Positions 19,152 through 51,854 of a DNA stretch of 64,000 nucleotides are shown here, one piece after another. The stretch is taken from positions 5,890,001 through 5,954,000 of the forward strand of contig OX388310.1 of assembly GCA_947579605.1 (NCBI GenBank), in the 5' to 3' direction. The notes under the pieces were generated by a model. It was not told the DNA's origin. It was given only the letters and a program-made list of their open reading frames with translations, and did no database searches. Both the position numbers and the translations under genes were made by a program. This DNA is from Athripsodes cinereus (lineage: Eukaryota > Arthropoda > Insecta > Trichoptera > Leptoceridae). The stretch's first letter is position 1; each line of letters opens with the position of its first letter.

Positions 19152-19181
19152 CGTCGCTGGTTCAATGAAACCTCTTATGTG
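19152..19181 (+). repeat. Left TIR of transposon E1
   Basis: 30 bp, exactly reverse-complementary to 33263-33292. The outer CGTCGCTG is shared with transposon E2; the inner half GAAACCTCTTATGTG is repeated subterminally. Confidence 0.95.
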
Positions 19182-19243
19182 TCAAAATTTCCAAAAATGA
19201 GTTTTTGGTGTCAAAATGTTCGTCTCGTCAAGCTGCGTATGCC

Positions 19244-19431
19244 AATGAAACCTGTTATGTGCTAAAATATGTATATCAAATGTTATAAGGAAAAATGAAA
19301 TCTCTTATGTGCGGCCGTCACCAAAAGTTGATTCATGAAACCTCTTATGTGTCATTCGAACACATACGAGGTTTCACGAATCAGATATTAGCGAATCCAG
19401 TACTGGCGATTTAGTATGAAAGCTCCTATGT
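19244..19431. repeat. Left subterminal repeats of E1
   Basis: The TIR inner motif ATGAAACCTCTTATGTG recurs, with one or two changes, at about 19245-19261, 19295-19311, 19335-19351 and 19415-19431. An inverted copy (CACATACGAGGTTTCAC) is at 19360-19376. Such arrays are candidate transposase-binding sites. Confidence 0.85.
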
Positions 19432-19846
19432 GATGTGACAAAATGACGCCGCTTATCAGTCTCTGGATTAAGTTGCCACACTCATAAAAATAACGATGTT
19501 TTTGACGAAATAATGCAAAGCATTAACAATTAAATTTATCTTATTTACAAAGATAGACCATTTATGGATTGTAAAATATATTTGAAATAGGTAAAATTAT
19601 ATTATGTAAGACGAATTGAATTTAAAAAAAAAAAATATTTCAGTGAAATATATTTTAATTAAATGGTCTTCTAGTTACTTTTGTGAAAATATAATTTTGA
19701 ATATGGCAGCACTCTACTTCGCTTGTCAATTTAGCCGCGCAGCTGGATGTCCGTCAAGTTAAATCGCGTCTTGTTTGAGTTGGTTGTAGTGTGCTCGTTT
19801 GGATTTCGTTTTCGTCGTTAAAAGTAATAAAATAAACAATTTTAAA

Positions 19847-22800
19847 ATGGATAAGAGGAAATTTGTTGCTTCAATCAATAAAAGAACAAAAATGATGGTA
19901 GAAATGTCACGAGAAAAATCAACGCCAAATCGAGGTAAGACTGTTTCTGAAATGTTGTTTTTTCATTAATTTCATTTTGAATTGACAATCTTTTTCATTA
20001 TTTAGAGTAAATGAAGTATCTTGTGGCGTCACACATATTATTACTTTAGTTTTTGGTGGTATAAAATAGAAAATAAGCTATTTAAAGTTAATTAGCACGT
20101 GGTAATTGATTCCCTTTATTTCCAGGACATGGTAGTGTAAATGCAATCATTGAAAATGTTCCCATCCTGTCTACATCTGAAGAGAAAGGTAATATACTAG
20201 AGTGAATGTTATGTTTTGACTTATTATCAATTTATTGTAACAATTTTCTTTAATATGTTTTCAAAATATCCATGCTGATTGTGTGTCTGTTTTGTGATTT
20301 CAGATTCCAATTTTTTTAATGTAATTGATGATATAGATACTAACAAAAGCACCTTGAGTGGCGAATCATCAAACAATTTAGGTGAGCCTATACTTATTTA
20401 AATCAATCATATCAGTATGCATGCTTTTATATTTGAATACATACAAATCCAACGTCAATTAATTGAACTTCTGTTTGTCCGTCTAGGCGAATGATATTCA
20501 TATTGACTTGTTCTATTGTTCCAGATTTAAGAACTGAAAGCAATAAGATTTATGTAGAGAAGATTCATCCAATAGCTGTTGAAGCAAATAATATAGGTAT
20601 GCATGCTTTTATATTTAAAAACACAAAAATCCAGCGTCATATAATTTACATTCTGTTTGTTCGTCTAGCGGAGTGATATTCATATTAATGTATTGTTTTT
20701 TTCCAGATTTAAGTACTGAAAGCAATAGGATTTATGTAGAGGAGATTCATCCAATAACTGTTGAAGCAAATAATATAGGTATGCATGCTTTTATATTTGA
20801 TAACACATAAATCCAGCGTCATATAATTGACATTCTGTTTGTTCGTCTAGCCGATTGATATTCATATTAATGTATTTGTTTTTTTCCAGATTTTAGTATT
20901 GAAAGCAATAGGATTTATGTAGAGGAGATTCATCCAATAACTGTTGAAGCAAATAATATAGGTATGCATGCTTTTATATTTGAAAACACATAAATCCAGC
21001 GTCATATAATTTACATTCTGTTTGTTCGTCTAGCCGAGTGATATTCATATTAATGTATTGTTTTTTTCCAGATTTAAGTACTGAAAGCAATAGGATTTAT
21101 GTAGAGGAGATTCATCCAATAACTGTTGAAGCAAATAATATAGGTATGCATGCTTTTATATTTGATAACACATAAATCCAGCGTCATATAATTGACATTC
21201 TGTTTGTTCGTCTAGCCGATTGATATTCATATTAATGTATTTGTTTTTTTCCAGATTTAAGTATTGAAAGCAATAGGATTTATGTAGAGGAGATTCATCC
21301 AATAACTGTTGAAGCAAATAATATAGGTATGCATGCTTTTATGTTTGAAAACAAATAAATCCAGCGTCATATAATTTACATTCTGTTTGTTCGTCTAGCC
21401 GAGTGATATTCATAATGACTTGTTCTTTTGTTCCAGATTTAAGCACTGAAAGCAACAAGATTTATGTAGAGAAGATTCATCCAATAACTGTTGAAGCAAA
21501 TAATATAGGTATTGCTACGCATTAAATAATCGCTGCGGAAAAGTTCATACTGGCTAATGTTCCTACAGTCATTTGTTGTCTGTGAGTCTTCCGTAATAAT
21601 AATAATAATTGTACGTTACAAAGAACACGTGACTGGCTGATGCTTCGATCTGCACACGGCACCACATCGTATGATTCTCATTCCCTTGAAGAATAACCGT
21701 TAAACGTGCCTGTTCCTCCTCGCGTCGCTTGCAAGCAAATTCAGTTACCCGCAAACCATGGCATAGGTTGGACGAAAGAAGGGTTTGTCCCTTCCCGCCT
21801 TAGTCGCGAATAGCGATGTGCGTAACTCCGACACAATAATAATACTAACAATAATTATGTAATAGTACTTAACTTCGTAATGTGATAAACAAGTGTGTTG
21901 CCCTCTATTGTATGTAAAACTATTCTTATTGTGTGTCGTTAATAATGTACTTTACAAGTCTGTGTTAGTTTTACGTGCGCGACCAATCTTACCGCCAATA
22001 TCAAGGAACAATAGTAACGATTAATAATTAATAGTAATTAATAAACAGAATAATGTTATAGACAAGCTTATATTCTATTTGAGATATATATAGACTACGA
22101 TTCTAATGGTGATAATGATAATGTTTGGAAGTTTTGAGTATAATAATATATGTTGGTTTTGGGCGTGGTTTTTGCTGTTGCCGCCATTTTACATATCCGT
22201 GCGAAATTAGATAATCCATTGTTTCTGAACAAATATTCTATGTTAGGAATCATGAACAATCACATAAACTGTTCTTTCTACTTTCCCAGTATTGTGAATT
22301 TGATTGAAATTGCGAATGTGATCCTAAATCTTCAGCGTGTACAGCTTCACCTCGGATAGTCAGTATATCGCGTAGCGGTGATTTACCGATATAACTCGCA
22401 TTACAATGTGAACTGTGTAATCCTCTAGTAACTTCTCCGGTCCATACCCTTGTCAAAAGAGTGATTAAAAGACTAGCTGAGTATTTCTGAAAGGAATATT
22501 GAAATAGTGACGCCTTCTGCCTTTTACACTGAGGATATTGTAGGAACGTATAAGATATCCCATGTCTCTTGAGAAGTAGTGATCTCTTCCGCCTTGAGGA
22601 CAGGATCCATCTGATTCTGGCAACACCTACGCACCACTGTACGTCTTTGGATTGACCAGCGACCGCCATAGATACATCAGAGTATGTTTCTTTCACGATC
22701 CTGCCTTCTACCGTCAATGTGTGCAAAATACGTCCTCAGTAACATGCTCGACTTTGTGTTATTCAACACCTGTTCGCCTGTCCATCCGTAAGTGACTATA

Positions 22801-25800
22801 TTGCTATTGAATATTGTATGTATTTGTTCCGTAACAGAGTTCATGTCATCATTGAACTGACCTATATATTATTTTCCGTTGTATGATAACTATATATTAA
22901 TTTCCTTTGTGTAATAATTTAAGATCTTGAGTTTGACTGAAGAATGAATGGTTCCATTTAAATAATTATAAATCACATGATAAACCAGGTATTGATTTAT
23001 TTTGATAATTCCAAGGTTGGTTTATTTGATAATTACCAACGTATGTTATTATGTCTCCATACAAAATTACTTTGAAGTTACTGTCTTGTTATGTATAATA
23101 TGTATACACAATAAACGTGAATCACTTACCATAAGTTATCTTTCTGTTGAAATCCATTTATTATACCTACAAGTACCTTCTGTGCTTCTATTCTGTTTAA
23201 AGTGCATTTCTTAGCCTCTTTGTAAGTGGAATTCAGATAACCTAGTTTATACTTGGAGTAGTTATGTCACAAAGGTTCAATTCCTTGATCAACCAATGGA
23301 TGAAAGACCCTATTATTTTACTATGAAAGCAACAAAGAGTTAAAGGAATGGCTCCACTGATGGAAATAATATATCCACCTTCTTGGAAGGGTCTGATGTA
23401 CTTATGATAATCTTTGTTCCACTTGATATAATTTTTTATTGTTTACTTGGAGATATATATCTATAATTCTACTCAAGACAGGATATAAGTAGAATCTTTG
23501 CAATATAAAGTATGCTAACAGAAGAAACATTATTGCTCGAATTACCTAAGTATTCTATAATGATATGATGACCATAAGAAAATGATGAAACCGAAGGATA
23601 AGGAATTCTCTGAACTTTACGTAAGTATAATATGTATAATTGAAGTATGTACCTGTCACCCACACACAATGCATTCCTCTTGTACAGACCAAGTAGAATC
23701 ATCCCTAGACACGAACTTGAGCCAATATTAATCTGTTTTACTTGCAAATATCTTTATATACTTTCTCTATAATATAATTAATTTTCTATGTGTTTCGCTT
23801 ATGTACATTGCAAAATGTATGTAGCGAAGCTGGGGGTTACGAGCCAATTTATATACTTATCTTCTTATGTATAATGTATAAATAATGTAAATTCATTTCA
23901 TATAATATTGGATATTTCCTTTTTGATAATTTTGTATAATGAAGTGATGCGATCGTCCTAGTGGACGAAATCGTATTAATTTGTGAGCTCGTCCTTGGAT
24001 GTAGCAATGTGGGCGGACGTGTACGTAACATTTGGGCAGCTCGTCCTGGATCGTACAACTCGTATAGTTGTTGGCCCGAAAATTTTAAATGTATTGTGTG
24101 GTGAATACATATGATTGTAAGGTTCAGAGTTCTCATCTATATTGTGTAATAATGTGTATTGATATTAATTGAAAATGTAATGATTTTAATGTGTGTATGT
24201 ATATGAAAACAATTTTAAAAATGAAACAGGAATCGTAAAGTAAATAATTTAAATGTCCGTATTTAAAAAATAAATGTATTGGTGTATAGCGCAAACGTTT
24301 GTCGCGAGTATTGTTATAATGTGGAGTAAAAAACCGATGCCGTATAGAAAGAATTGTATGGTGAAAATATTCTGTTGTAAATGTCTCGTATTAAGCGGTA
24401 AACAAGACATCGAAAACCGACCAACATAACATAATGAAAATATAGTGTGTATCTATACGTCGCGTGTGCGAACGCCGTAAGAATAGATATAATATTAGAA
24501 CGATAATATTATTATACCGCAGTATACATATCTATGCAGCGTATAGTAGGTACATACCTATACGTCGCGAGAGAAAGAGACAGCATACAACATACCTCAA
24601 CATAATAGTAATATGAATACGCGAATTGGGAACTCCAGATTACTAGTAAAATGTATAGTTGAAAATAATAATATTGGAATGAAACGAAATAATATGTACC
24701 CATAGTGTTATGTGTATAATAAACCAAAGTGTACAAAGAACTTTGCCGGTAAACATAATTTTGTTGTTATGTTATTTTAATAGTAGATTCATTTTCAAAC
24801 GATGTGAGTAAAAATCGATGTTAAATATTAAATTGAATTAAATTTTTTGAAACAGTAAAATGTTGCATTTGGAATAAATATCTTTATTGAACTCTTGGAG
24901 AAATAATATTAAATGAGCGTTGTTGTGTAAAATATGCGTAGTAGAATTTTGATAAGAATATAAATGTGCGTACGTAGTGATGTGACGAAATAATAATGAT
25001 AAATAATATTAAATAAATATTTTTGTTTTAAGAAAATTAAAGTTAAAAATAAATCGAAATAAATAATGTTAAACCTTCACGACCGTTCACGAAATTTGAT
25101 ATATAAATACACTTAACCCTTAGTGAAACATGACCGAATTTGTTAACCCTTTGTAAATAGTAATTGAATTTTTTTTAATGTCAAGTTGTGAACTGTAACT
25201 GAATTTTTGAATTTAGTAAAGAAACAGTTAACCCTTTGATGACCATCGTTGAAAATTTTGACATTAACGTAAATAGTAGAATGATGTTTTGTAAAATTTT
25301 TTTTTGGAAATTAAAGGAGTAACCATGTAACGATGTAGAATTTTTGCTGTTGAATATTAACCCTTCGTGTTCGGAATTTGTTATCTTTTGTGAAGTAATT
25401 AGTTTTCTTGAAATGTTATAATGAGACTTTTGCGGCTTATTACCATCGTGAAATATTGAAGTAAACTATGCCTTGTTTATTTGAGAACTGAGTCCGTTTA
25501 GTGAATTGTCCCGTTAAGGTAAACTAACGAACGCTCTTTGATAAAAAATGAGTTATGTTTATGTAATATGTAAAGCCGTGGTAGGAGAGATGTGTTTAAA
25601 TACTTTTTTTTGTGACTTTTGTGTAATCAATGTAGAGACGATGTTATCTGGATGTGTGAAAGATAAATCGTAATGCTCTTTTTGATGAATGTAGACAATG
25701 TGATTGCTAATCGTTCATGCCTATTATTTTGAAGTTTGAGTTTATATGACGTTTAATTCCGTGTAGGACACGTAGTAATCTCTTATGAATTGTAATTGGA

Positions 25801-28800
25801 AATGTTTGGATGTAGTATATCCTTGTTGAATTAAATAATTTTGTGACTTTGTGAAAAGTTTGTTTATGTTGCTTGAATACATTGGAAAATGTGATAGAAC
25901 ATTTTGACATTGAACGGAATGGCTTATGAAGGACACAGAATAAAACCTGTAGTGGAATGTTGGCTGCAGATATTCAATGGGATAATTTTGATTAATTGTA
26001 TGTTAGTGAATAAAGATGATGTATGAATCTGTTTATGAAAGGTGAGCCCTGTATGAAGAAGTAAATGTTGAATTTGAATAATGATGTATATTAGAATTTA
26101 TTGAACTTGTAACTTGTATATTGTGTAGCAAAGATCGAAAGTTGTTCAATGTATTTGTCATGTATTAAGCCTGTGTGAGGGTAGCTCCCTCTGAGATTAT
26201 CTCTATGTGAGAAATCTGTCTCTGTGTGAGAATTGTGCTTATGTAATATGCGTAGAAGGATTTGACGCCAATAATGAATATCGGTTACTGTAAATGTGAT
26301 TGCAGTCGTCGTGATTTACCATTATGTCATGTCTGCGTGTAAATTGTTTTTCTAATATGTATATGTCCTTATTATGTATGATTTCTTTCTGTGCTTTGCC
26401 AATATCTTTGTATGGTACATGGTACATGAAATCACTTGTATATGAGTGCTATTAAGCTTAATGGGTAAAATGAAGCGTAAATGTGGTATCTCTAATTCCA
26501 TCTATACAAAATTGTTTATAATTATTTAGATCCCTTTATGTTACTTTTCCCTTGCCGGATACATGTAACTGGAATCGAGAATGATGTAAACCAACTTCTT
26601 AAGTATGTAACTTATGTTTTATATGTTTGTCATGTTTAAAATATTAACTTGTCGTCGATCGTAGTAAATGAATCCATCAATGAAACGTACGTATGTTGAT
26701 AAATTGAAAGAAAGAATTTTATCACCATGTAAAACGAACCGTATATTGTAACGTAATACAGATCCTGAGTTTCTTATAAGGTTGTATTGTAAAATGTTTA
26801 AAGTTGTTGTTTTCATAACCTGTGTTTTTCATATACATGCACATATGCACATGTCTATATATATATATATATATGCACACCTCTATGTACTATTATATTG
26901 TTATGATTGTAGCTCTCAAACTTTTGTTAGGAGCCCCGTACTAAAACAACTAAAGTGAATTTTGTGTTATTACTAAGAAGTGTAAGTCAAAATCTGAAAA
27001 CAGTTCGCATCTATTTTGACTATGGGCAATTTACCGCGAGTGTTTAATAATAATAATTGAACGGGCTATAGGATGTAAGAAACATTGTAATAGTATATAA
27101 GCTACCATTTTTTGAATTGTTTGTCTGTAATTGGGTACCTATATAGTTGCTTATGTATCCAATGGTTCTCAACTTTTTATGTAACCAGTGGTGCTCAACT
27201 TTTATATGACCAGTGGTATTCAATCTTTTCATATAACCAGTGGTTCTCAACCATTTTTTTGTAGTGGTTCTCAACTTTTTTTTGTATAATTGGGAAACTT
27301 GAAAATTTGTCGTTTCTCTTCAAATTTTCAAGAGGGGCCGAAAGGGAGAATGCTACGCATTAAATAATCGCTGCGGAAAAGTTCATACTGGCTAATGTTC
27401 CTACAGTCATTTGTTGTCTGTGAGTCTTCCGTAATAATAATAATAATTGTACGTTACAAAGAACACGTGACTGGCTGATGCTTCGATCTGCACACGGCAC
27501 CACATCGTATGATTCTCATTCCCTTGAAGAATAACCGTTAAACGTGCCTGTTCCTCCTCGCGTCGCTTGCAAGCAAATTCAGTTACCCGCAAACCATGGC
27601 ATAGGTTGGACGAAAGAAGGGTTTGTCCCTTCCCGCCTTAGTCGCGAATAGCGATGTGCGTAACTCCGACACAATAATAATACTAACAATAATTATGTAA
27701 TAGTACTTAACTTCGTAATGTGATAAACAAGTGTGTTGCCCTCTATTGTATGTAAAACTATTCTTATTGTGTGTCGTTAATAATGTACTTTACAAGTCTG
27801 TGTTAGTTTTACGTGCGCGACCAATCTTACCGCCAATATCAAGGAACAATAGTAACGATTAATAATTAATAGTAATTAATAAACAGAATAATGTTATAGA
27901 CAAGCTTATATTCTATTTGAGATATATATAGACTACGATTCTAATGGTGATAATGATAATGTTTGGAAGTTTTGAGTATAATAATATATGTTGGTTTTGG
28001 GCGTGGTTTTTGCTGTTGCCGCCATTTTACATATCCGTGCGAAATTAGATAATCCATTGTTTCTGAACAAATATTCTATGTTAGGAATCATGAACAATCA
28101 CATAAACTGTTCTTTCTACTTTCCCAGTATTGTGAATTTGATTGAAATTGCGAATGTGATCCTAAATCTTCAGCGTGTACAGCTTCACCTCGGATAGTCA
28201 GTATATCGCGTAGCGGTGATTTACCGATATAACTCGCATTACAATGTGAACTGTGTAATCCTCTAGTAACTTCTCCGGTCCATACCCTTGTCAAAAGAGT
28301 GATTAAAAGACTAGCTGAGTATTTCTGAAAGGAATATTGAAATAGTGACGCCTTCTGCCTTTTACACTGAGGATATTGTAGGAACGTATAAGATATCCCA
28401 TGTCTCTTGAGAAGTAGTGATCTCTTCCGCCTTGAGGACAGGATCCATCTGATTCTGGCAACACCTACGCACCACTGTACGTCTTTGGATTGACCAGCGA
28501 CCGCCATAGATACATCAGAGTATGTTTCTTTCACGATCCTGCCTTCTACCGTCAATGTGTGCAAAATACGTCCTCAGTAACATGCTCGACTTTGTGTTAT
28601 TCAACACCTGTTCGCCTGTCCATCCGTAAGTGACTATATTGCTATTGAATATTGTATGTATTTGTTCCGTAACAGAGTTCATGTCATCATTGAACTGACC
28701 TATATATTATTTTCCGTTGTATGATAACTATATATTAATTTCCTTTGTGTAATAATTTAAGATCTTGAGTTTGACTGAAGAATGAATGGTTCCATTTAAA

Positions 28801-30414
28801 TAATTATAAATCACATGATAAACCAGGTATTGATTTATTTTGATAATTCCAAGGTTGGTTTATTTGATAATTACCAACGTATGTTATTATGTCTCCATAC
28901 AAAATTACTTTGAAGTTACTGTCTTGTTATGTATAATATGTATACACAATAAACGTGAATCACTTACCATAAGTTATCTTTCTGTTGAAATCCATTTATT
29001 ATACCTACAAGTACCTTCTGTGCTTCTATTCTGTTTAAAGTGCATTTCTTAGCCTCTTTGTAAGTGGAATTCAGATAACCTAGTTTATACTTGGAGTAGT
29101 TATGTCACAAAGGTTCAATTCCTTGATCAACCAATGGATGAAAGACCCTATTATTTTACTATGAAAGCAACAAAGAGTTAAAGGAATGGCTCCACTGATG
29201 GAAATAATATATCCACCTTCTTGGAAGGGTCTGATGTACTTATGATAATCTTTGTTCCACTTGATATAATTTTTTATTGTTTACTTGGAGATATATATCT
29301 ATAATTCTACTCAAGACAGGATATAAGTAGAATCTTTGCAATATAAAGTATGCTAACAGAAGAAACATTATTGCTCGAATTACCTAAGTATTCTATAATG
29401 ATATGATGACCATAAGAAAATGATGAAACCGAAGGATAAGGAATTCTCTGAACTTTACGTAAGTATAATATGTATAATTGAAGTATGTACCTGTCACCCA
29501 CACACAATGCATTCCTCTTGTACAGACCAAGTAGAATCATCCCTAGACACGAACTTGAGCCAATATTAATCTGTTTTACTTGCAAATATCTTTATATACT
29601 TTCTCTATAATATAATTAATTTTCTATGTGTTTCGCTTATGTACATTGCAAAATGTATGTAGCGAAGCTGGGGGTTACGAGCCAATTTATATACTTATCT
29701 TCTTATGTATAATGTATAAATAATGTAAATTCATTTCATATAATATTGGATATTTCCTTTTTGATAATTTTGTATAATGAAGTGATGCGATCGTCCTAGT
29801 GGACGAAATCGTATTAATTTGTGAGCTCGTCCTTGGATGTAGCAATGTGGGCGGACGTGTACGTAACAGTATGCATGCTTTTATATTTGAAAACACATAA
29901 ATCCAGCATCATATAATTTACATTCTGTTTGTTCGTCTAGCCGAGTGATATTCATATTGACTTGTTCTTTTGTTCCAGATTTAAGCACTGAAAGCAACAA
30001 GATTTATGTAGAGGAGATTCATCCAATAACTGTTGAAGCAAATAATTTAGGTATGCATGCTTTTATATTTGAAAACACATAAATCCAGCATCATATAATT
30101 TACATTCTATTTGTTCGTCTAGCCGAGTGATATTCATTTTGACTTGTTCTTTTGTTCCAGATTTAAGCACTGAAAGCAATAGGATTTATGTAGAGGAGAT
30201 TCATCCAATAACTGTTGAAGCAAATAATATAGGTATGCATGCTTTTATATTTGAAAACACATAAATCCAGCGTCATATAATTGACATTCTGTTTGTTCGT
30301 CTAGCCGAGTGATATTCATATTTATGTATTGTTTTTTTCCAGATTTAAATACTGAAAATAATGGAATATGTTTAGAGGAGATTCAACCAATATCTAGAGA
30401 TTCCATTCAAATAG
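19847..30414 (+). CDS. Transposase E1, N-terminal exons 1-12 (nine tandem 24-codon exons)
   Basis: Twelve exons are predicted from ATG 19847: 19847-19934, 20126-20188, 20304-20381, then nine 72-bp exons 20525-20596, 20707-20778, 20890-20961, 21072-21143, 21255-21326, 21437-21508, 29979-30050, 30161-30232 and 30343-30414. All introns are phase 1 with GTAAG/GTATGC donors and TTNCAG acceptors, so every internal exon keeps frame if skipped or duplicated. Exon 1 encodes MDKRKFVASINKRTKMMVEM, comparable to SKRTSMMVHLA in the E2 protein. The repeated exon encodes D-L-S-T-E-S-N-R-I-Y-V-E-E-I-H-P and then ITVEANNIG. Repeat starts are 182 or 183 bp apart, with signs of a two-unit higher-order repeat (exons 5-6 and 7-8). 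The array is split by LARD copy 2 after exon 9. The extension is about 292 residues before the terminal exon. Confidence 0.75.
21513..24030 (+). repeat. 5' LTR of LARD copy 2
   Basis: Partner of 27351-29868. The first ~510 bp and the segment 23056-23460 are almost the same as in the copy 1 LTR, while about 22035-23055 is markedly diverged and has an extra block near 22406-22475. Confidence 0.92.
24031..27350 (+). other. Non-coding interior of LARD copy 2, with polypurine tract
   Basis: Closely matches 3605-7040 with small indels and a shorter 27-bp minisatellite. The polypurine tract AGAGGGGCCGAAAGGGAGAA (27331-27350) abuts the 3' LTR. No open frame of retroviral size on either strand. Confidence 0.75.
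24033..24051 (+). promoter_or_regulatory. Primer-binding site of LARD copy 2 (diverged)
   Basis: TGGGCAGCTCGTCCTGGAT begins two bases after the LTR end. It resembles the tRNA-Pro complement seen in copy 1 (3608-3625), with CA in place of one G and T in place of G. The same sequence is the third, unused unit in copy 1 (from 3656). Whether it still pairs with tRNA-Pro or with another tRNA is unclear. Confidence 0.65.
27351..29868 (+). repeat. 3' LTR of LARD copy 2
   Basis: Same length and ends as 21513-24030. It contains the same antisense 158-codon open frame (28088-28564) as the 5' LTR (22250-22726). That frame is not kept in copy 1, so I do not call it a gene. Confidence 0.92.
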
Positions 30415-30590
30415 GTATGTATTACATTTGATTGCATACAAATCTTCAGTCGCACAGCTAATGTTATGTGATTACTTCAATACAACACTATTATCACGAC
30501 ACTTAGGAACTACAAAGTTTTCACTTGTATGGCATTTGTTTCAGGTAAATCATCGGTAACAAAAAAAAGAAGCATATTATTAAAGAAGCA

Positions 30591-32357
30591 ATGAAAAATA
30601 GGGTGTCAGGGACCAATTATATTGGCTTCAAAAGAAACCAATCCAAACTTGTAGGATCTGTAGAAAGAGCCGCTCGTTCAGTTAAAAAACGATGCAACCA
30701 TTCTACCATGAAATGCAAAAGCACCAGGTCCTACATGTGCGGAACTATTTCGGACCAAAAAAGGGAGCAATTATTTGCTCAATTTTGGGAGATAGAGGAC
30801 TGGACTGCAAAACGTGCCTACGTTAAAGCATTAGTAACATCAAGAAGTGTGGTGAAAAGACGAGTGGTCCCAGCTACCAAAAAGGCGAAATTAGAGGGCC
30901 ATGACATAATGTTGGAGAACGATGATGGTTGTAATGTTAGGGTGTGCAGAAATTTTTTTCTTAACACCCTGGACATCGGAGAAGACAGTTTTAGAAGGTG
31001 GTCCTCAAAAATTGAAGAGTTGGTAGAAAACCAAATGCCAAGTGAAGCCGAAGAATCTCAACATGGAACATCAGAGTTAATCTCTAAAAAAATTATTGAA
31101 AAAAAGAAAGCCTTAAAAAATGAATCTATACGTAAAGCTTTGCTGAAAAAGGAGGACAATGTTTGTGTGAAATCGCAGGCCTTAGATGACTGGTTGGCGT
31201 TAATACCAAAGGTTCCAAGTCATTACTGCAGATCATCATCTAAGAAGGTGTATGTCGAAGCAACTTTTAAATCATGGTCTCACATGCACAAGATTTATGA
31301 AGAGTGGTGCAAGGCAGAACTGAAACCCTTTTTTGGTAGGAAGCACTTTAGTGATGTGTTGCAAAAAAATAAAAATATCGCAATACATCACCCTCGTAAA
31401 GATATGTGCGACATGTGTTGTCAATATAAAGAAGGGAATCTTCCTGAGGAAACATATGCCGCACATATGAAAAAAAAAGAAGAATGCAGAGAAGCCAAAC
31501 GTCTTCTTACCTCAGAGGCGAATGGCAAAAAGTTAGTTATTACAATGGATTTACAAAGTGTTTTGCTCGCCCCCAAGACAAATGCCTCATCTATGTATTA
31601 TAAGCAAAAACTGCAAGTACACGACTTTACCATTTATGAAATAAATACTAAAGACGTGTACTTGTATGTTTGGAATGAGGTTGATGGGGGCGTAACCAGT
31701 AATGAGTTCACCAGCTGCATTATTGACTTTTTATCATCGAAACTGGGGATAGGATATGAAGAGTTTGTGCTCATCTCTGATGGGTGCGTCTACCAAAACA
31801 GGAACAAAGTTCTAAGCTCTGCTCTTCGAGACTTTAGTTATAAAAATAATGTGCATGTGACCCAGTTTTATCTTGAAAAAGGCCACACACAGATGGAGGC
31901 TGACTCAGTCCATGCCACTCTGGAGGGTTATTTTTACCCTCCAATTCATGCACCTTCTGATTATGTCTGTAGAATGAGGATGGCAAGAGAGAGACATCCT
32001 TATAAAATTAATGTTCTGCACTATGACTTCTTCAAAAACTTTTCTCTCTTGCCATCCAATTTGAAATCATTAAGACCATCATCTACAGTGGGCGGATCCA
32101 AAGTCACCGACATCCGCCAATTAAAATATCTCCCTAATGGGGATATCCTCTACAATTTAGGTTATGGAGAAGATTTCTCGCCACTTTTGCAAAGAAATAG
32201 CACAGTGGGAGAAATCATGCCTCCTAATCTGTATGAGAGGAAGATCCCCATTACGGAGTCAAAATATAAGTGCCTCCAGGAACTAAAGCCTGTGATCGAT
32301 AAAGATTTCCATGTATTTTATGACAGTCTGCCTTTTACAAAGGGAAATAAAAAATAA
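30591..32357 (+). CDS. Transposase E1, terminal exon with DDE catalytic domain (588 aa from ATG)
   Basis: One uninterrupted frame. Residues about 35-50 hold spaced Cys/His (C35, C42, C50). About 60-85 reads like R..LF..FW....W..KRAYVKALV, and 118-130 VCRNFFLNTLDIG. Residues 205-285 hold KVPSHYCR and a probable zinc site HHPRKDMCDMC (C273, C276). The catalytic core has TMD320LQSVLLAP, LISD397GCVYQNRN and TQME436ADSVHA, giving spacing D-76-D-38-E, as in RNase H-fold transposases. The protein is about half identical to the E2 protein through the core. A canonical acceptor (GTTTCAG, exon from 30545) precedes it. From there, however, phase-1 splicing runs into TGA at 30592-30594 and is one base out of frame with this ORF. 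The break is at the A8 run 30561-30568. Translation from ATG 30591, a -1 shift, or a weak acceptor at 30585 or 30588 are alternatives. Confidence 0.85.
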   Translation: MKNRVSGTNYIGFKRNQSKLVGSVERAARSVKKRCNHSTMKCKSTRSYMCGTISDQKREQLFAQFWEIEDWTAKRAYVKALVTSRSVVKRRVVPATKKAKLEGHDIMLENDDGCNVRVCRNFFLNTLDIGEDSFRRWSSKIEELVENQMPSEAEESQHGTSELISKKIIEKKKALKNESIRKALLKKEDNVCVKSQALDDWLALIPKVPSHYCRSSSKKVYVEATFKSWSHMHKIYEEWCKAELKPFFGRKHFSDVLQKNKNIAIHHPRKDMCDMCCQYKEGNLPEETYAAHMKKKEECREAKRLLTSEANGKKLVITMDLQSVLLAPKTNASSMYYKQKLQVHDFTIYEINTKDVYLYVWNEVDGGVTSNEFTSCIIDFLSSKLGIGYEEFVLISDGCVYQNRNKVLSSALRDFSYKNNVHVTQFYLEKGHTQMEADSVHATLEGYFYPPIHAPSDYVCRMRMARERHPYKINVLHYDFFKNFSLLPSNLKSLRPSSTVGGSKVTDIRQLKYLPNGDILYNLGYGEDFSPLLQRNSTVGEIMPPNLYERKIPITESKYKCLQELKPVIDKDFHVFYDSLPFTKGNKK

Positions 32358-32961
32358 TTTGATTGTACCAATTGCTGTTTTCTTTTACTTCACCTTAAAC
32401 TTAAAAGTATCATTACTAAAATTAGCATGAAATTACTATAAATTTACTGAGGTATCTGTAACCACTTTCAAAGTGTGTTGTTTGAATGGACATACTGGGA
32501 GTAATCCAGCGAGTTCACTAGAATTATAACCTTTCCAGACAAAACTTGAAATGGTTTGCAAGTATTATTTTGTAGCAGAAGTAAGGTAGGTTAGATAAGA
32601 AAACAAAGTCTGTATTGAGATGAATTTGACAGTAGCAGTTAATAATTTCGTGATATATGATGTGATTATAAAATCAAATGATGTGAAAACTATCTGTCAC
32701 ATTTAACATGTCGCAACCTTAATGTAGAATAATTATTATCCTAAGTTAAAATTTAAGTCAACCTGAGTTAAGTACAGTATTAAGAAATGATAATGACAAG
32801 ATTCGAGATAATGTAATGAATGAGAGTTATAAGATTTCTAAATAATAATGCATTTTAAATTTGCTTCAGATATTTATGTAAATATTGTTTTTTTTATAAT
32901 ACAAAGGTTTAAAATTCTCATTCGAAAATCACACTTAGGATAGTTCTGCATTAAAATATAC

Positions 32962-33095
32962 TATGAAATCTCGTATGCGTCATTCATAAACGCACAATGA
33001 CAGTTGATGTTTGGCACATGAAACCTCTTATGTGTCACTTTAGACACATACGAGGTTTCATGTGCCAAATGAAATCTCGTATGTGTCAATAATTC
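32962..33095. repeat. Right subterminal repeats of E1
   Basis: Copies of ATGAAACCTCTTATGTG occur at about 32963, 33018 and 33068, and in inverse (CACATACGAGGTTTCATG) at 33046-33063. The pair at 33018 and 33046 forms a near-perfect inverted repeat (ACATGAAACCTC...GAGGTTTCATGT). Confidence 0.82.
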
Positions 33096-33262
33096 AGAAA
33101 AATGCAATAATAATATATAAAAAACATTGTTTTATGCTTTTATTTAACTCCATGTGATATATTTTGACGTCTTGCATGAATTTGATAAAAAAATTGGTTA
33201 CATTTGTTGATCTGTGGAGTTTTAAACAGTTTTTTGCGTCTCCTGTAAAATTTGGTTTGGAG

Positions 33263-33292
33263 CACATAAGAGGTTTCATTGAACCAGCGACG
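33263..33292 (-). repeat. Right TIR of transposon E1
   Basis: Exact reverse complement of 19152-19181, followed by the target duplication CTAT (33293-33296). Confidence 0.95.
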
Positions 33293-33296
33293 CTAT

Positions 33297-34018: not shown

Positions 34019-34295
34019 TATCTATCTATCTATTCTCTCGCCGTATCCCAAGTGGGGTAGGCAGAGAGAACGGAACGCCATATAGATCTGTCCTTACATA
34101 CTTTCGCTTCTTCAACAGTCATACAATTTCTCATGCAAGCACGTTGATTTATCTTACTCAAAACACGGCCGTCCTTGAGAATTTGATCTACATGATCAAG
34201 CCATGTAGTTCTCGGACGCCCGCGCTTCTTCACATCGCTCCTTTCAGACAGGTATATCCTCATTGTCATTATTTCCTCTTCCATTCGTTCCACAT
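34019..34295 (-). pseudogene. LINE 3' end (same family as 54090 and 60603)
   Basis: The minus frame reads ERMEEEIMTMRIYLSERSDV, then KKRGRPRTTWLDHVDQILKD and ...SVLSAYPTWDTARE. It corresponds to the last ~85 residues of the LINE polyprotein. It ends in a (TATC/GATA)n tail at 34019-34031, the usual simple-repeat 3' end of such LINEs. It is 5'-truncated. Confidence 0.75.
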
Positions 34296-34639
34296 GACCA
34301 AAATAATACTAATAATATAAAAAAGGAATCAGAGTAAACCCTAGATAACGGTCACAGCTAGGGAATGTTAAAATATCGGATCTTCAATGTCTGTAACAGG
34401 TGATGATGGTGTCGGCTGATAGGTGGTAGGTGCATAGGTATTTAGTTTCCTACTCAAATTCTCTTGTTTAAACAAACCACTTATGCGACGATGTTTCCGT
34501 GTAATTAAAAGCTTGACGTTGTGTTATATATTACTACCACTTATAGGTGCAGCCTTTTTGCTTATCTAGACTGACATGTCAAAGTAATGGTACACCAAAG
34601 AATTTTCAGATGTACGTGTATTATAATTTTATTAATCAA

Positions 34640-34863
34640 AACATATAAATAAAGGTATTCTGCAGGGTATTCCGGAGGGCAGGAGACCGTTGAGCAGACC
34701 ATGACAAAGATTGTTAGATAACATCAACCGAGATCTGGAGGAGTTCAATGCTAAAGACGACTGGCAGTCCATTGCTAAGGATAGAATGGCTTGGAGATCT
34801 ATTGTTTCGGAGGCAAAGGTCCTACAAGGGCTATTCGGCCATCGGAAGTATGTAAGTAAGTAA
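34640..34863 (+). pseudogene. LINE C-terminal fragment with (GTAA)n tail
   Basis: The plus strand reads GRRPLSRP, stop, QRLLDNINRDLEEFNAKDDW, then QSIAKDRMAWRSIVSEAKVL and QGLFGH. The GRP..RW.D.I..DL.......W...A.DR..WR..V..A...QGL order is the C-terminus of an insect LINE polyprotein. It is followed by GTAAGTAAGTAAG. One in-frame stop and the truncation mark it as dead. Confidence 0.7.
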
Positions 34864-34869
34864 GAACAC

Positions 34870-36748: not shown

Positions 36749-37243
36749 ACTAGCTGACCCGGCAAACGTTGTTTTGCCATCCTATACCTACATTATTTTT
36801 TGGAAATTATTTTGAGTTCAATAAAAAATAACTAAAGACTATAAAGGTGTGAGGATGTTATAATAATTAAAAGACAAATGAAGCGTTGTAGACAAATTAT
36901 TAAAGTAATTTTTATTTAGACTTATAGAAGACGCCTGGCGGGGATAACTGCAGTAATCGACCGGAGTTGAAAATGATGAATTATGTACTTATATCGCTAT
37001 TAAAAAAATGGGGTTGATGGTGGAAGGGTAAAAACTTAGGGCTGTATGCATAAAAAAATATTTTGCCCTAAATTAAAAAAAAAAAATGGGGTGGACCACC
37101 CTTAACTTTAAGGGGTATGAAATAGATGTTGCCCGATTCTCAGACCTACTCGATAAGCACACAAAATTACATCAAAATCTGTTAAGTCGTTTCTGAGGAG
37201 TGTGATAACAAACACCGTGACACGAGAATTTTATATATTAGAT
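36749..37243 (+). repeat. Interspersed repeat starting ACTAGCTGACCCGGCAAACG
   Basis: The start TAGCTGACCCGGCAAACGTT, the inner ATTCTCAGACCTACTCGATA and the end GACACGAGAATTTTATATAT are, from memory, those of a repeat widespread in insect genomes. I cannot state its class. There is no coding sequence. Confidence 0.5.
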
Positions 37244-37740
37244 GTACGGTAATTTGGTGTTGACATAAGCAGTTATCGGTACAAATACCCGTAAAAAAGG
37301 TACCGTGAGTAAATATTCTTTAAGAAAAGGTAGACATTTCAATATGAAACAGAATAATGAAAAGTAAGATTTGTATTATGATAGAGTGAAAATCATATAG
37401 GTATGGCCACACAATTTTGGCAACCATGGGTCACCCTGAATATCTTGTGAATAGTGTTATAGATACACTCTGCTTCTATTGAGAGAAAGAAGAGTTCAGA
37501 CTGTTTCCTGGCGATAACACTCTAAATGGGTGAAAAGCCATCCAAAAAAAAAGAAAAAAAGTTGACTCATTGACACGACATTGTTTTTTATTCTTTCCAA
37601 CAGATGCAAAAAATGTGCTTCTTGTTTTACCTTACTTAAATGCAGTTATAATTACATCTTAAAAAGGAAATATTATAATTGGTGGGTTTTTATTTTATGT
37701 GGGTATTGAGTCTTGAAATAACCCCCTCAATGAAAATGGG

Positions 37741-37985
37741 CATATATAGCCTGGTCATAGCATGTGGATTTGCAATTCATGTGCATGTAATAAACATGCA
37801 GGTTGCCCCTCCCGTGCCGATATAAAGGTTAGGCAATCAGGATGGGTGATATCAATAGGATACAACACAAAAGTGAAGGATTCAGTAGACCAGCTGCATG
37901 TTATAATCACGCTGGTTGTCCACTTTGTACCATAAATAAATAATGCATGGCATAGCCTCATCACTTACGTAAAATGTATTTGTTC
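37741..37985 (-). mobile_element. tRNA-derived SINE, copy D (diverged)
   Basis: On the minus strand it contains ATATCACCCATCCTGA, TTTATATCGGCACGGGAGGG and TGCATGTTTATTACATGCAC, matching the SINE body. A second overlapping piece (CCAGCTGCATGTTATAATCA) suggests rearrangement or two copies. The head with box A is missing. Confidence 0.5.
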
Positions 37986-38544
37986 AAATATCAACCTTTT
38001 ACAGAATGCTGAAGAACTTACAGAAAGTTGGAAATCTATTTTTTGCTGGATGTTCCATGGGATATACAGTTAGAAAATAAACTATTTTTTTCCAAATTCA
38101 AGAAATGGTTGCTGTAATGGAATTGTTGGGAAATTAAAAAGATATTTTAAAATGTTAAATATTTGAATACCTAATAATTAGATATAGCTGAGAATAATAA
38201 ATATACATGTTAGAATAAGTGTAAGTAATTTCATGTATGTAAGCAGTACCTAACACCTCCTTCACACAAGTTTACTTATTAAAAAGGCTCATACACTCTA
38301 ATACAGATTAATCAAGCTAATGTAATGAAATAATATGTACGAAAACCATTGCAATACTTACCTACTCACCATGCCATACTCAATGCAGAACAAAAAATAA
38401 ATCATTCTTAAAAAAGGAGCCATATTTTATTTATCTACTGATAATATTATCTCACAAAAAATAGAAAAATAAATTTAGTTTTAATATTGGACCAAAAATA
38501 CATAATATAAGATTTATTTAATTCTACTACCTAAACACAGTGAA

Positions 38545-38770
38545 TGAGTAAAATAATAAATTTGTTTTTTATTTTTAATTTTTTTCTTCCTATACTATGC
38601 TAGGTCCTCTAGACGTTGCCAAGCACATGGCAAAGGCTTCCCAATCTCCACTTCTTGAGTAAAATAATAAAATTATGTATTATTTTTAATTCTCTTCTTC
38701 TTGTACCATGCTAGGTCTTCATGACGTTGCCAAGCACTCGGCAAATGCTTTCAAATCTCCACTTTTTGGA
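38545..38770. repeat. Tandem duplication, ~113-bp unit
   Basis: GAGTAAAATAATAAA recurs at 38546 and 38658. The following blocks ATGCTAGGTCCTCTAGACGT and ATGCTAGGTCTTCATGACGT, each followed by TGCCAAGCAC, repeat with about 15-20% change. Confidence 0.75.
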
Positions 38771-39727
38771 TATTTTACTGTCTTCAATTTATTAACTAAC
38801 ATCCCATATTTGATTTTGTCATTCTTGTTATTGAAATGAATAACCAGTCATATCTGTAAAGAAAAATAATATATTATATAACACATTTTAGATAACTCTC
38901 TTACACAGATTTTACAAAAATTATGGTTCGTTTAGTGATACCTAGTTCAATCTTGGTACGCTTTATTTAAAATTTATGATTCATGTCTCAGTTTACAGTG
39001 TAACATTTTCATTAATTATAATATAATTCAAAGTGATAAATAATTAGTTATCCCTATTATTTGGCTATATATTCTTGTTATTATATATATAAAATATAAT
39101 ATATGTACATAAGTATTAAATGTCTTATAAATTAAATTCATATAAAACACTGCAATTGGCCTTATTTTTTTGTTACTATGACTTAAGTTCCTTATGCTTT
39201 ATGTGCTGTTGTGTTTAAATTAACAAATATATTCTTACCTTTATAATAATTAATGCTCTCTTAGAATCACAAGGCAGAACCAGCTTCCAAGATTCAGGGT
39301 GCCTTTGCATTAATCATGTAATCTTTTCCTAGCCCTCAAATGTCATTGTCATGGTAATGAATAATCCTTTAACATCAGAATCGTTTTAATCAATGTTTAT
39401 TGTTATGCATTTTCCATTATTTCTGTAAAAAGGTAAAAAAACAAAGTTTTAATATCTTGTTGTAAATTACTCACGATTAAATACGATTAATATGATTTCT
39501 TCATAATGTTGCATCTACTAACTTAATATTATCAATATCAATTAAATAATATCACGGTATTTCTTAAAATAGTAAATTACTTCAGATGTAATTGTATAAT
39601 GTCAGTTTATAAGTTCATAATGAATTAAATGAAATGAGTTGTCAAACAAAACTGACTCCTGTAACAAATGTTATATTTACTTGTGTTTTTAAGGCATAAC
39701 CTCAAACATTTCTTCGTAGAAACTAAT
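38771..39727. other. Spacer, nothing specific seen
   Basis: AT-rich, no recognised feature. Confidence 0.4.
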
Positions 39728-39731
39728 GTAT

Positions 39732-39761
39732 CGTCGCTGCATATTCAAAAAGAGACATGTG
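39732..39761 (+). repeat. TIR of E2, left in window (3' end of the gene)
   Basis: Exact reverse complement of 44498-44527. Begins CGTCGCTGCATATTC. Confidence 0.95.
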
Positions 39762-39939
39762 CGTGGGTACTAGTTTTGAGAAAACACGAAAAAACCTTCT
39801 AAAATCTCAATTACACAAAATATTTCACAAAAAATAACGTCAATAAGTAGAAAAATACACTAGTTTTCATTATAACATCACTTTAAAACTATATCTATGC
39901 CATAAATATGCAAAAAAAGTTTTTTTTCAAAAAATTAAT

Positions 39940-39990
39940 CACATGTCTCTTTTTGTATAAACACGACCTTCACATGTGTCTTTTTCTATA
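39940..39990. repeat. Subterminal repeats of E2, left side
   Basis: Two copies of the inner TIR motif in inverse orientation: CACATGTCTCTTTTTGTATA at 39940-39959 and CACATGTGTCTTTTTCTATA at 39971-39990. They are 31 bp apart. Confidence 0.85.
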
Positions 39991-40810
39991 TGACAGAACT
40001 GTTGTAGTAAGTACCTGTAAGTAGTACTATCATAATACTGGTCTATGAAAATTGACGCGCGTCTGTCAAATTTTAACACTTTTTAGCAAAATATTACATT
40101 AGTAGTTATATTTTTTTTACTGAGAATGTACATAGTTATTATTTCCATATAATTACTTTATTAAAAACCAAAAATTGCAATTATGTCTCATACTATTAAC
40201 CATCGCAATATTTTCCTCACGTTATGCCCAGCAAAATGTATTCTACTAATTTAGACAATGTAAATTAAATAAAAATTGTGATTAATTTTATTCATAATAT
40301 TATGATAGCAATACAAAATATTATACTTACAGAATTCTCTCTACTTACATTTTATTACTCACAACTTCTGTGGTCTGGTCTATAGTAATTTTAGTATAGC
40401 TCTTTCTCAACTGAGGGTTTCATTATAGGTTGATAATGATATTTATTTTGATTCAAGATATTATTTAAGGAATAAAAAAAAGTTTCCATTTAATAATTAA
40501 TTGGTTCAACATTATATTGATATCAATTCAACCAGTTCATATATAAATAAAAAAAGAGGATAAGTAATAACAAAAAAATATTTTTAATTTTTTTTAATAT
40601 CACAAAAAATCAAATACAATAAATTAACTTTACTTATTTATTTTACAATGTGTAATTACTTAATCTACTAGTTATATATTATTTACAGCAATCTTACTTA
40701 TAACATAAAAAAATATTAGATACCATATTATACACATTAGAAATATCATTAAACTAATTATTAAAAATCTAATTTATAAATTAATCTGTCTTATAATATA
40801 TAAATCAAAT

Positions 40811-42465
40811 CTACAAGTGAGGCAAAGAATCATAAAATGGATGATGGTCCTTATCCATCACCATCTTCAGTTCCTGTAAATTTTTGAATTTTGCTGCGGT
40901 GATAGGAATCGGACCATCATACAATTTTTGGGGTATAAAATAACCGGGCTTACGACGCTGCTGAAGTATGCTCCAATCTTTTTTCATATCTATTTTAAAC
41001 CAGATATCACCAGATGGAGCATACTTCAGAGCTCTAATGTCTGTGACAACAGGATCTCCCACTTTTTTCCCAGGTCTTAGCGATGGCAGGTTTGTCGGAT
41101 TGGCCTCATAATTGAGGAAAAAATCATGGTGAACATTTCTGACTACATAGGGGTGTTTTGGCCTCGCCATTTGCATTCTCGCTATGTAGTCAGATGGCGA
41201 ATAGATGGGAGGCTTAAAATAATGATCTAAAACAGAGTGCACATTATCAGCCTCCATCATCGTATGCCCTTTCTCCAGGATAATTTGCTCAATTATTAAA
41301 CCTTTTTCCTTTGCAACATCGCTAAGAGCACTGGCCAACACTCTATTTCTATTTTGATAGTTGCAACCATCTGAAATGATAATAACTTTTTTGAAATTTT
41401 GGAGGCCCCTAAGGTAATCCATGATGCACGACGTGAATTCATTGGATGTTACACCTCCATCGGCTTCATGCCAAGTATAGAGGGTAACATCCGCATTGTT
41501 CAGAGCGTATATAGTAAAGTTGTGCATCTGCAGTTTTTGTTTGTAGTAAACTGCAGATGCTAACAACTTTAGGCACAATAATACGCTCTGTAGGTCCATT
41601 GTTATCACGTGCGTGTCATCATTAGCAGACTCCTTTGCTTCTTTTTTAGCCTTACGGGCCTCCTCATTTCGTGTCAAATGAGCTTCTAATTCGTCTTTAC
41701 TTATCATTGCATATTTATATGATAAACACACATCGCACTGATCTTTGCGAGGCCTGTGGATTGATACTTTTTCCTCCCTCACTACCCTTTCAAAAAGATT
41801 CCTGCCCACAGTGGGCAGGGACTCACTCACACACCATTCATTACATACAGTCAACATGTGAGTGAAGGACAAAAAAGTTGAATCCACAAACCTCATTTTG
41901 GAATTGGCCCTGCAGTAATGGCTGGGCACTTTGGGAAGTAGGTCTAACCATCTCTTAATATTTAAAATATTGGAATCTTTTTTGATAGATTTAAGAGATG
42001 GTTTTACCGGGGGTATATTCTCCTTTTGTTCTTGGTCACACCTCAAAGTCCATTTTGCATACATACTTACAGTTATGCCCAAAGTATTGACAAACATTTT
42101 CCGGCAAACTTTATATTTTTCGCCGGAAATTGTTGGCAAATAAATATTGTGGGCAAATTGTTTCTTTATCGAAACACCGGGACGACGTCTTCTGATTTTT
42201 CTTGGTATGACAAGTGCCATAACATATGCCTTTTTTTCATCCCACGTGAACGACCAAAATTTTTTAAAGATATGGGCACGATCCTCATCGCTGAAGGCGC
42301 TGCAACAATAAGTATTATTATTAAATACTTTTGGATCGTGCCCACATCTTTCCTTGATGGACTTTGCAGGTTTGACCTTCTCTTGAACATACTTCTTATC
42401 TTTCTTTCTGAATCCCAAGTATTCTTTCCCCAGAGACCTACGTTTTTTATTTTTTTTTATTTTTT
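40811..42465 (-). CDS. Transposase E2, DDE catalytic part
   Basis: The frame is open from about 42465 down to the stop at 40811. Residues are numbered from the MGFRKK position at 42418, where the codon is TTG, so this is not a real start; true translation must enter from upstream. Features in order: RCGHDPK...YCCSAFSDEDR (25-47), FW.F.WDEKKAYVMALV (54-70), KVCRKMFVNTLGI (103-115), LPKVPSHYCR (161-170), zinc-type HRPRKDQCDVC (C228, C231), then the DDE core TMD274LQSVLL, IISD350GCNYQNRN and TMME389ADNVHS (D-75-D-38-E). The end HPFYDSLPHL matches HVFYDSLPF of E1. All three acidic residues are kept and no internal stop is seen. The sequence upstream, GKEYLGF, aligns with GTNYIGF of E1. Confidence 0.85.
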
Positions 42466-42876
42466 TTTATTTTTTGTGTCACGCGGTCATCATATAGTTC
42501 GCTTGATACCATGAATACACCAGTCATTGGACACAAAACTCTATCATTATTATCATTTTCTGAATGGAAACTACTACTGGGAGATTCTGTTTCTTTTACA
42601 GCTATAAATTTCCCGGTCACTGGGCAAAGTATCAGCGAACTCCCTTGTGCGCTATCATCCACATGTTCCTCCACATCCACGTGTTCCTCCACATCCACGT
42701 GTTCCTCCACATCCACGTGTTTCTCCACTTCCACATGTTCCTCCACATCTACAACGCTTAAGAACTGCCCGGTGATCGGACAAAGTGTTTTTTCTTGTTC
42801 TACCATTTCCATGGCTTCACTTCTCCTAGCTTCGTTGGCTAGATGCACCATCATACTCGTCCTTTTACTATACATT
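42447..42876 (-). CDS. Transposase E2, N-terminal part (LCPxTGxF repeats)
   Basis: The exon begins at 42876 after a good acceptor (TTTATTTCAG on the minus strand), with ATG at 42875-42873. The start SKRTSMMVHLANEARRSEAM resembles exon 1 of E1. Three copies of a short motif follow: TLCPITGQF, ILCPVTGKF and VLCPMTGVF. Between the first two lies a repeat of V-D-V-E-E-H (18-bp DNA unit, about 42657-42750). The frame ends in a lysine run KIKKNKKK and TAA at 42447, inside an A6-T-A9-T-A9-T-A6 tract. The catalytic frame continues one base shifted. It is one gene with the DDE part, broken or bridged at this tract. The motifs have no function that I know. Confidence 0.7.
42657..42750 (-). repeat. 18-bp coding minisatellite (VDVEEH repeats)
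   Basis: CCACATCCACGTGTTCCT on the plus strand is repeated about five times with few changes. It encodes an acidic VDVEEH tract in the N-terminal part of the E2 transposase. Confidence 0.88.
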
Positions 42877-43116
42877 CTGAAATAAAAGACAATATTTGTT
42901 GAATTTTGTTGGTATTTATTTTGTAAAACTCCATTTTAATCAAATTATGTGTAAAACCATATAATAATTTATTATTTGATGAACAATATTTGTATCAAAG
43001 TCAATAATTATCTAAAATTTTAATGAAAAGAATAAGCTGGTGAATGTGGATGACAATAATTATAATATTTTAAAGCTCATATGAATAATTAATAGTATGT
43101 GAGTTCGTATAAATAC

Positions 43117-43726
43117 CTGCTGCAATTAATGTGGTTGTTAGCCTCGGTCAAATTTAAGATTATGAATTGATGAGGATCAGGCAATCAAACAATCTGCAAC
43201 AAAAGAAAAAACATATTAATCAACAAATTAATAATACTTTTAGAGATACAGAAGCCATGACAAGAGCATTGAATTGTATTATTTACAACTTTAAAGTTTG
43301 ATAACTTATGAAGGTACTGATTTTAGCCAACTATAAGATTATTATTTTTAAGTTCGTATGAATAAATATTATGTAAGTTCGTATAAATACCTGCTGTAAA
43401 TTAATGTAGTTGATAGCCTCGGTCAAATTTATGATGATGAATTTATGGAGATCGGGCGATGAAACAATCTACAACAGAAGAAAAAACATTAATACTTTTA
43501 GAGATACAGAAGTGGTGCCAACCGCATTGAATTGTATCATTTACAACCTAGATTAGAAGTAAGTTATGGAAGTACTAATTTTAGTCAACTATAAGGTTAT
43601 TCTTTTTAAGTTCATACCAATAAAATAGATATATTATTTGAATTGGTATAACATACCTGTCAGTAATTTAGTAGATAGCCTTGGTCAAATTTATGATGAA
43701 ATAGGGAGATCAGGCGATGAAACAAC
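43117..43726 (-). repeat. Three tandem exon-like units upstream of the E2 transposase
   Basis: On the minus strand three units have an acceptor-like and a donor-like end: 43726-43657 (70 bp), 43468-43391 (78 bp) and 43193-43117 (77 bp), with (TTGTAG or TTGCAG)/...CAG/GTAT. They share ATTGTTTCATCGCCYGATCT and AAATTTGACCRAGGCTA. Only the middle one has an open frame, so they are best seen as alternative 5' untranslated exons. Unit spacings are 258 and 275 bp, so intron sequence was duplicated too. Confidence 0.7.
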
Positions 43727-43939
43727 CTACAACAGAAGAAAAAACATATAAATCAACAAATTAATACTTTAAGAGACACAGAAGCCATGTCAAAAGCATT
43801 GAATTGTATTATTTACATCTATAAACATTCAGACAACAAATTAATTAGTTGTGTGTGTCAACATTAAAATTACAAATAGTTATAGATAAATAGTTACCTT
43901 TTAGAAATATATATTATGTTTGAATAAACTTGATTATAA

Positions 43940-44050
43940 AAATAGTGTCCTTTATCACTTCAAAACATTAAAATAATAGTGTCTTTTATCACTTCACAAC
44001 AAAAATAGTGTCTTTTATCACTTCACAACAAACAGTGTCTATATCACGTA
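43940..44050. repeat. Short tandem repeats AATAGTGTCTTTTATCACTTC
   Basis: ATAGTGTCNTTTATCACTTC occurs three times from about 43941 to 44029, then degenerates (ACAGTGTCTATATCACG). It lies in the presumed promoter or 5' region of E2. Confidence 0.8.
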
Positions 44051-44310
44051 AAAATATTGTAATTGCTGGGAATCGTACGAAAATATCAATGGGGAACTAG
44101 AAGAATTGTTAAATTAATGATGATTTGTAACTTTTATCACTGGAAAAGACTAGAAAACACGAAAAAAAACAGCTTCTTGACGAACACCAACCAGTAAACA
44201 ACGCCTCTGCAAACGAAATGGCAGAGCTGTCAATGCAGCGGTCACGCCAACCCACGCTAAGCGGACATAGACAAAACTAATCATGTGATAGGGACTAAAA
44301 TTGCCGTTTA

Positions 44311-44357
44311 TTCAAAAAGAGTCATGTGCGGTATTGTCACATGTCCCTTTTTCAATA
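44311..44357. repeat. Subterminal repeats of E2, right side
   Basis: TTCAAAAAGAGTCATGTGCG (44311-44330) and an inverted CACATGTCCCTTTTTCAATA (44338-44357) repeat the inner TIR motif. Confidence 0.85.
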
Positions 44358-44497
44358 GGCGAATATTTTGGTGCACTCACATATTTCATTTTCTATCTCC
44401 GTGATTATTAATTTAATTAAAATAATTTTTATTGTAGTCGATAGAGAAAAAGAAACTGAATCGAGTGGTATATTTAACTCATTTTCGATAAAAAATT

Positions 44498-44527
44498 CAC
44501 ATGTCTCTTTTTGAATATGCAGCGACG
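44498..44527 (-). repeat. TIR of E2, right in window (5' end of the gene)
   Basis: Exact reverse complement of 39732-39761, followed by the duplication GTAT. Confidence 0.95.
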
Positions 44528-44531
44528 GTAT

Positions 44532-51824: not shown

Positions 51825-51854
<30 letters not shown>

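Follow-up and report, generated by a model that had tools for sequence, protein, structure and literature searches.

Two related DNA transposons with a predicted DDD transposase in the caddisfly Athripsodes cinereus

The Sola superfamily of DNA transposons (Sola1, Sola2, and Sola3) is described, in a passage of PMC10741241, by a DDD transposase, a target site duplication (TSD) of 4 bp, terminal inverted repeats (TIRs) of at least 11 bp, and a length mostly between 2 and 9 kb. Sola2-type elements are reported to insert at AT-rich AWWT sites (part of PMC3627910). The elements examined here, E1 and E2, lie in a stretch of 64,000 nucleotides of the genome of Athripsodes cinereus (contig OX388310.1), hereafter the window. 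Both are, with high confidence, cut-and-paste DNA transposons of autonomous type that form one group and encode a transposase with a predicted ribonuclease H (RNase H) fold and a putative triad of aspartates (DDD), related to the domain DUF7869. This confidence applies to the reading as DDD transposons, and not to the name Sola. An initial annotation of the window had proposed transposons with DDE transposases; both do represent a single group of DNA transposons whose transposase is predicted to adopt the RNase H fold, but the third acid is most likely an aspartate. The mechanism appears ordinary, and neither the databases nor the literature searched give the group a clear name.

Ends, target duplications, and copies in the genome

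The coordinates of both elements, their perfect 30-bp TIRs, the TSDs CTAT and GTAT, and the copies of the inner-TIR motif just inside both termini of each element, all indicated in the initial annotation, can be read directly in the DNA (Table 1). Two 4-mers of the window agree at random in 0.7% of cases. Inverted-repeat pairs whose perfect arms reach 30 bp or more, at a span of 100–20,000 bp, number only six across the whole window, and E1 and E2 account for two of them. The motif CGTCGCTG, given in the initial annotation as the start of the TIR, does start the 30-bp inverted repeats of both elements, but its eight letters alone are just mildly enriched in the genome searched (716 Mb in 160 contigs), with 2,658 forward and 2,593 reverse occurrences versus 1,681 and 1,675 for the control. 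By itself, the motif is not specific. The 30-bp TIR, on the other hand, is specific: that of E2 occurs 963 times in forward and 969 times in reverse orientation with up to three mismatches, while its reversed pattern occurs nowhere in the genome. These 1,932 E2-type ends therefore correspond to at most about 960 elements.

Many relatives of E1 and E2 are present in the genome, and some of these transposed very recently. The E1 protein matches at least 107 stretches of its own genome (stretches rather than elements; 74 were scored of 1,109 candidates). Two siblings of E1, on contigs C10 and C19, measure 5,590 bp, share 97–99% identity with it in two long aligned blocks, and hold their own TSDs, ATAT and ATTT. 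A second family, of about 4,046 bp (L014–L022 and L029, the latter of 4,026 bp), is present on several contigs, and its seven copies with both ends—each with its TSD—differ from one another by 4–11 substitutions and 0–24 gap columns. The stretch matched in the own-genome search is free of stops in six of these seven copies, L029 having five; the open frame spans 753 codons in L014, L016, L018, and L020, 641 in L015, and 640 in L022, and L016 holds an open reading frame (ORF) of 733 aa. Judging by its sequences, this family moved very recently, and its single-exon copies, known ends, and target preference make its activity directly testable.

Eight further elements, 30–43% identical to E1, also hold TIRs and 4-bp TSDs (8/8), with ends starting with CGTCG in seven of them and with CGCCA in L067. 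They represent about seven families, since L066 and L068 share their ends, and their TSDs are weaker proof because a matching TSD was built into the search rule for seven of them. One of these families, L065 (3338–5410 of C1:27414800-27421799), has the TSD ATAT and the ends CGTCGGTG. Among the copies resembling E2, that at C19:497400-502399 has only the ends in common with it, and that at C3:18283900-18289399 is 97.8% identical to E2 over 1,740 columns, its second end not being found in the stretch examined.

Short copies are represented by the first 20 listed plus-strand E2-type ends with one mismatch. A right end lies within 1 kb of 16 of them (the other four have no partner within that distance), at spans of 257–261 bp in 13 cases and of 225, 359, and 490 bp in the remaining three. 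Fourteen of the 16 are flanked by identical TSDs. Twelve of these short copies are 90–98% identical (mean 94%), and three short copies compared with E2 have little in common with it beyond the terminal 30–34 bp and the inner-TIR motifs.

TIRs with a TSD of fixed length, the mark of this type of transposon, thus recur in independent copies: E1, E2, the two E1 siblings, all seven two-ended members of the 4,046-bp family, and the 14 short copies. The search for other copies suggested in the initial annotation favours the transposon reading. Altogether, 33 of 35 two-ended elements hold identical 4-bp TSDs, the TSD having been part of the search rule for seven of the 33. These are ATAT (16), AAAT (6), TTAT (4), ATTT (2), GTAT (2), ATAA (2), and CTAT (1), so that 24 of the 33 fit AWWT, compared to 5.8% of the 4-mers in the window, and nine do not. 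In host genomes, the annotation treats some relatives as ordinary genes, as would be expected if these were domesticated host genes lying between repeats by chance. However, the many near-identical copies at different sites, each with its own TSD, refute domestication for these copies, and in every coding copy with both termini read the gene lies within the TIRs, making this alternative extremely improbable.

The transposase and its catalytic acids

The E1 and E2 proteins are homologous, with 44.6% identity across 572 columns (E 2.5e-165), and the CDxC motif and the other motifs quoted in the initial annotation are confirmed in both ORFs. Residues C273, C276, H292, D320, D397, and D438 of E1 are invariant in all 83 aligned proteins, with the spacing D-(73 to 80)-D-40-D (41 in one row). 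The three aspartates are also kept in all 38 own-genome loci read (L011–L040 and L061–L068, where L011 is E1, L027 is E2, and L030 and L033 represent fragments of a single element).

The triad had been given as D-75/76-D-38-E, a spacing that is correctly counted to the glutamate; the third acid that never varies, however, is the aspartate two residues downstream. A DDE triad with E436 would agree with the presence of this glutamate in 78 of the 83 proteins (the others hold S in two, P in two, and Q in one) and with its position at the start of the helix that also bears D438. Nevertheless, D438 is found in 83/83, and the near-identical 4,046-bp family carries Q at 436 and D at 438, with six of its seven two-ended copies stop-free in the matched stretch and four keeping the longest, 753-codon frame. 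Because this recently moved family has Q at 436, D438 is most likely the third acid as judged by conservation, and the DDE triad, considered very unlikely, was dropped in favour of DDD.

The predicted model contains an RNase H-like catalytic domain with a predicted local distance difference test (pLDDT) score of 90.1, where D320 lies on strand 1, D397 after strand 4, and D438 on the last core helix (DSSP elements). All 50 matches listed by the fold search are integrases or mariner-type transposases. Consequently, the fold proposed as a test of the transposase reading favours it in the model, which presents both the fold and the three placed acids of the RNase H-fold DDE/D class.

In the most likely mechanism, the transposase would bind the TIRs and the adjoining repeated inner-TIR motifs, and the element would be excised through the two-metal DDD chemistry expected from this enzyme family. 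Its joining to the target with a 4-bp stagger, at A/T-rich and mostly AWWT sites, would generate the 4-bp duplications. The short non-autonomous copies would be mobilised in trans by the transposase, which is probable because the ends are common to both.

Relatives of the E1 protein are numerous. The search with this protein yielded 419 of them at E ≤0.001 among 7,997 candidates scored (120 were listed), while the profile search gave 385 and the search with a distant own-genome family 487, counts in which the overlap is not removed. Among the matches listed, the named relatives come from beetles, moths, limpets, another snail, and fish, and the proteins bear the labels unnamed, hypothetical, uncharacterised, or DUF7869. 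One name among the matches listed is that of a bacterial metagenome-assembled genome, probably reflecting a host contaminant. The nearest named domain is DUF7869 (PF25273), for which Pfam lists no function. It scores above the cut-off in seven of the 12 relatives scanned (P0010, P0091, P0099, P0122, P0125, P0126, and L067), the best score being that of L067 from the same genome (34.6 bits, with a cut-off of 26), while the other five (P0004, P0086, L064, L065, and L066) do not pass. A quick tree built from 38 rows places E2 beside the own-genome families L023 and L028. E1 falls with two beetle proteins and two unnamed ones (support 82, below the starred level) and not with E2, and L065–L067 make up a separate, deeply split clade whose branches are long.

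Several observations weigh against the reading of E1 and E2 as autonomous-type DDD transposons. Foldseek returns weak matches for the catalytic domain (three at E ≤0.001, the best being a viral terminase nuclease) and none at E ≤0.001 for the full model, and the Pfam scan gives no DUF7869 match for the E1 and E2 proteins themselves. Two of the 16 two-ended short copies hold no matching TSD. Furthermore, the E1 copy of the window and E2 may be non-autonomous at present, because their frames are affected: when exon 2 of E1 is read in the frame of exon 1, both siblings keep 603 open residues but the window copy only 15, before a break in an A run, and the N-terminal and transposase ORFs of E2 switch frames within an A-rich run. 

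Among the fold searches, matches to hAT (Hermes), ISCth4, and TnsB are confined to the Foldseek lists, with E values of 0.007 or worse. Searched against PDB with phmmer, the E1 protein finds no integrase, and its two matches are at chance level (E 0.12 and 0.78).

Some matches upstream of the catalytic domain, all below the Pfam threshold, were also observed. The L065 transposase holds an N-terminal C2H2-like zinc finger, a candidate DNA-binding part. P0004, P0010, and P0091 show weak matches of DNA-binding type (Pox_D5, and RFX_DNA_binding in P0091), which may mark a DNA-binding domain.

Structure of the window copies

E1 had been taken as one element of 14 kb, overlooking the long terminal repeat (LTR) retroelement nested within it. 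A transposon of that size (14.1 kb span) is ruled out by this insertion and by the 5,590-bp siblings, both of which are devoid of it. The E1 gene is predicted to consist of two exons, the first of which encodes a product resembling, by eye, the N-terminus of E2.

Table 1. Coordinates of E1, E2, and their parts in the window
Feature	Position	Strand	Remarks
E1 transposon as present	19152..33292	+	nested LTR element included; 5,590-bp siblings without insert
E1 left TIR	19152..19181	+	perfect, 30 bp
E1 right TIR	33263..33292	-	30 bp
E1 TSD CTAT	19148..19151 and 33293..33296		left and right
E1 exon 1, predicted	19847..19934	+	88 nt; start codon to GTAAG donor; same in two siblings
Tandem array, left part	20405..21512	+	~182-bp unit; in predicted E1 intron
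LTR retroelement	21513..29868		nested in predicted E1 intron; absent from two siblings
LTRs of nested retroelement	21513-24030 and 27351-29868		2,518 bp each; 100% identity; TG...CA ends
TSD GTAT of nested LTR element	21509-21512 and 29869-29872		4 bp
Tandem array, right part	29869..30392	+	~182-bp unit
E1 exon 2, predicted	30545..32357	+	TTTCAG acceptor at 30544
E1 transposase ORF	30591..32357	+	588 aa
CDMC zinc-type motif, E1	31407..31418	+	C273 and C276, then conserved H292
First putative catalytic Asp, E1	31548..31550	+	D320; strand 1
Second putative catalytic Asp, E1	31779..31781	+	D397; end of strand 4
Third catalytic Asp (most likely), E1	31902..31904	+	D438; E of the initial annotation is residue 436
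E2 transposon	39732..44527	-	4,796 bp; gene on minus strand
E2 TIRs	39732..39761 and 44498..44527	+ and -	30 bp, perfect
E2 TSD GTAT	39728..39731 and 44528..44531		left and right
E2 transposase ORF (L027)	40811..42418	-	535 aa; all three Asp present
E2 N-terminal ORF	42447..42875	-	142 aa; different frame from transposase ORF
E2 internal repeats	43059..43825		upstream of gene

A further copy of the LTR retroelement family nested in E1 lies at 1128-9517 of the window, and pieces of the insert match it at 83–94%. Elsewhere in the window, inverted arms of 37 bp at 54147-61074 (span 6.9 kb) enclose a second pair (54655-54684 / 60628-60657) and look like two repeat copies in inverted orientation. 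Two short foldbacks also occur, one at 51633-51826 with 70-bp arms and one at 16682-16880 with 64-bp arms, all of them perfect.

Relation to Sola and other known systems

The families of E1 and E2 belong, by a modest balance of probability, to the Sola superfamily. Sola had been named as a candidate in the initial annotation, and the TSD length, the DDD triad (judged here by conservation), and the AT-rich target do fit published descriptions of Sola. The AWWT target described for Sola2 is matched by most of the 33 TSDs, with the nine exceptions mentioned above.

A lineage of superfamily rank, undescribed and apart from Sola1–3, would explain why DUF7869 is not mentioned in the literature searched and why the named relatives among the matches listed bear only the uninformative names given above. 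Moreover, hidden Markov models of Sola detected this superfamily in bivalves only according to a passage of a mollusc study (PMC10294476), whereas relatives of E1 are present in the gastropods Patella and Gigantopelta. However, that study covered five gastropod genomes, and neither genus is mentioned in its main text (PMC10294476). In addition, the 4-bp TSD, the DDD triad, and the AWWT-like target match those reported for Sola or Sola2 (PMC10741241, PMC3627910), leaving the separate lineage as the less probable placement. The group had also been called possibly undescribed; its domain does have a Pfam name, but one without an assigned function.

In either placement, DUF7869 gains a likely function as the catalytic core of a transposase. 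Proteins of this type are annotated as ordinary genes in, for example, moths, beetles, fish, and molluscs, and should therefore be checked as transposons. It can only be tentatively proposed that DUF7869 supplies the catalytic domain of a DDD superfamily that spans the animals, is undescribed and distinct from Sola1–3, has ends of CGTCG type and AWWT targets, and is represented in this genome by recently active autonomous copies.

With respect to other systems, TTAA, the target of Sola3, is absent from the 33 TSDs. The same sequence is the target of Kolobok and piggyBac (part of PMC9587614). The Mos1 mariner transposase and SETMAR show about 8–12% identity, and Tc1/mariner elements duplicate a TA target, in contrast to the 4 bp of the E1/E2 group. 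Finally, retroviral integrases hold a DDE triad, unlike the E1/E2 group, where the triad is most likely DDD.
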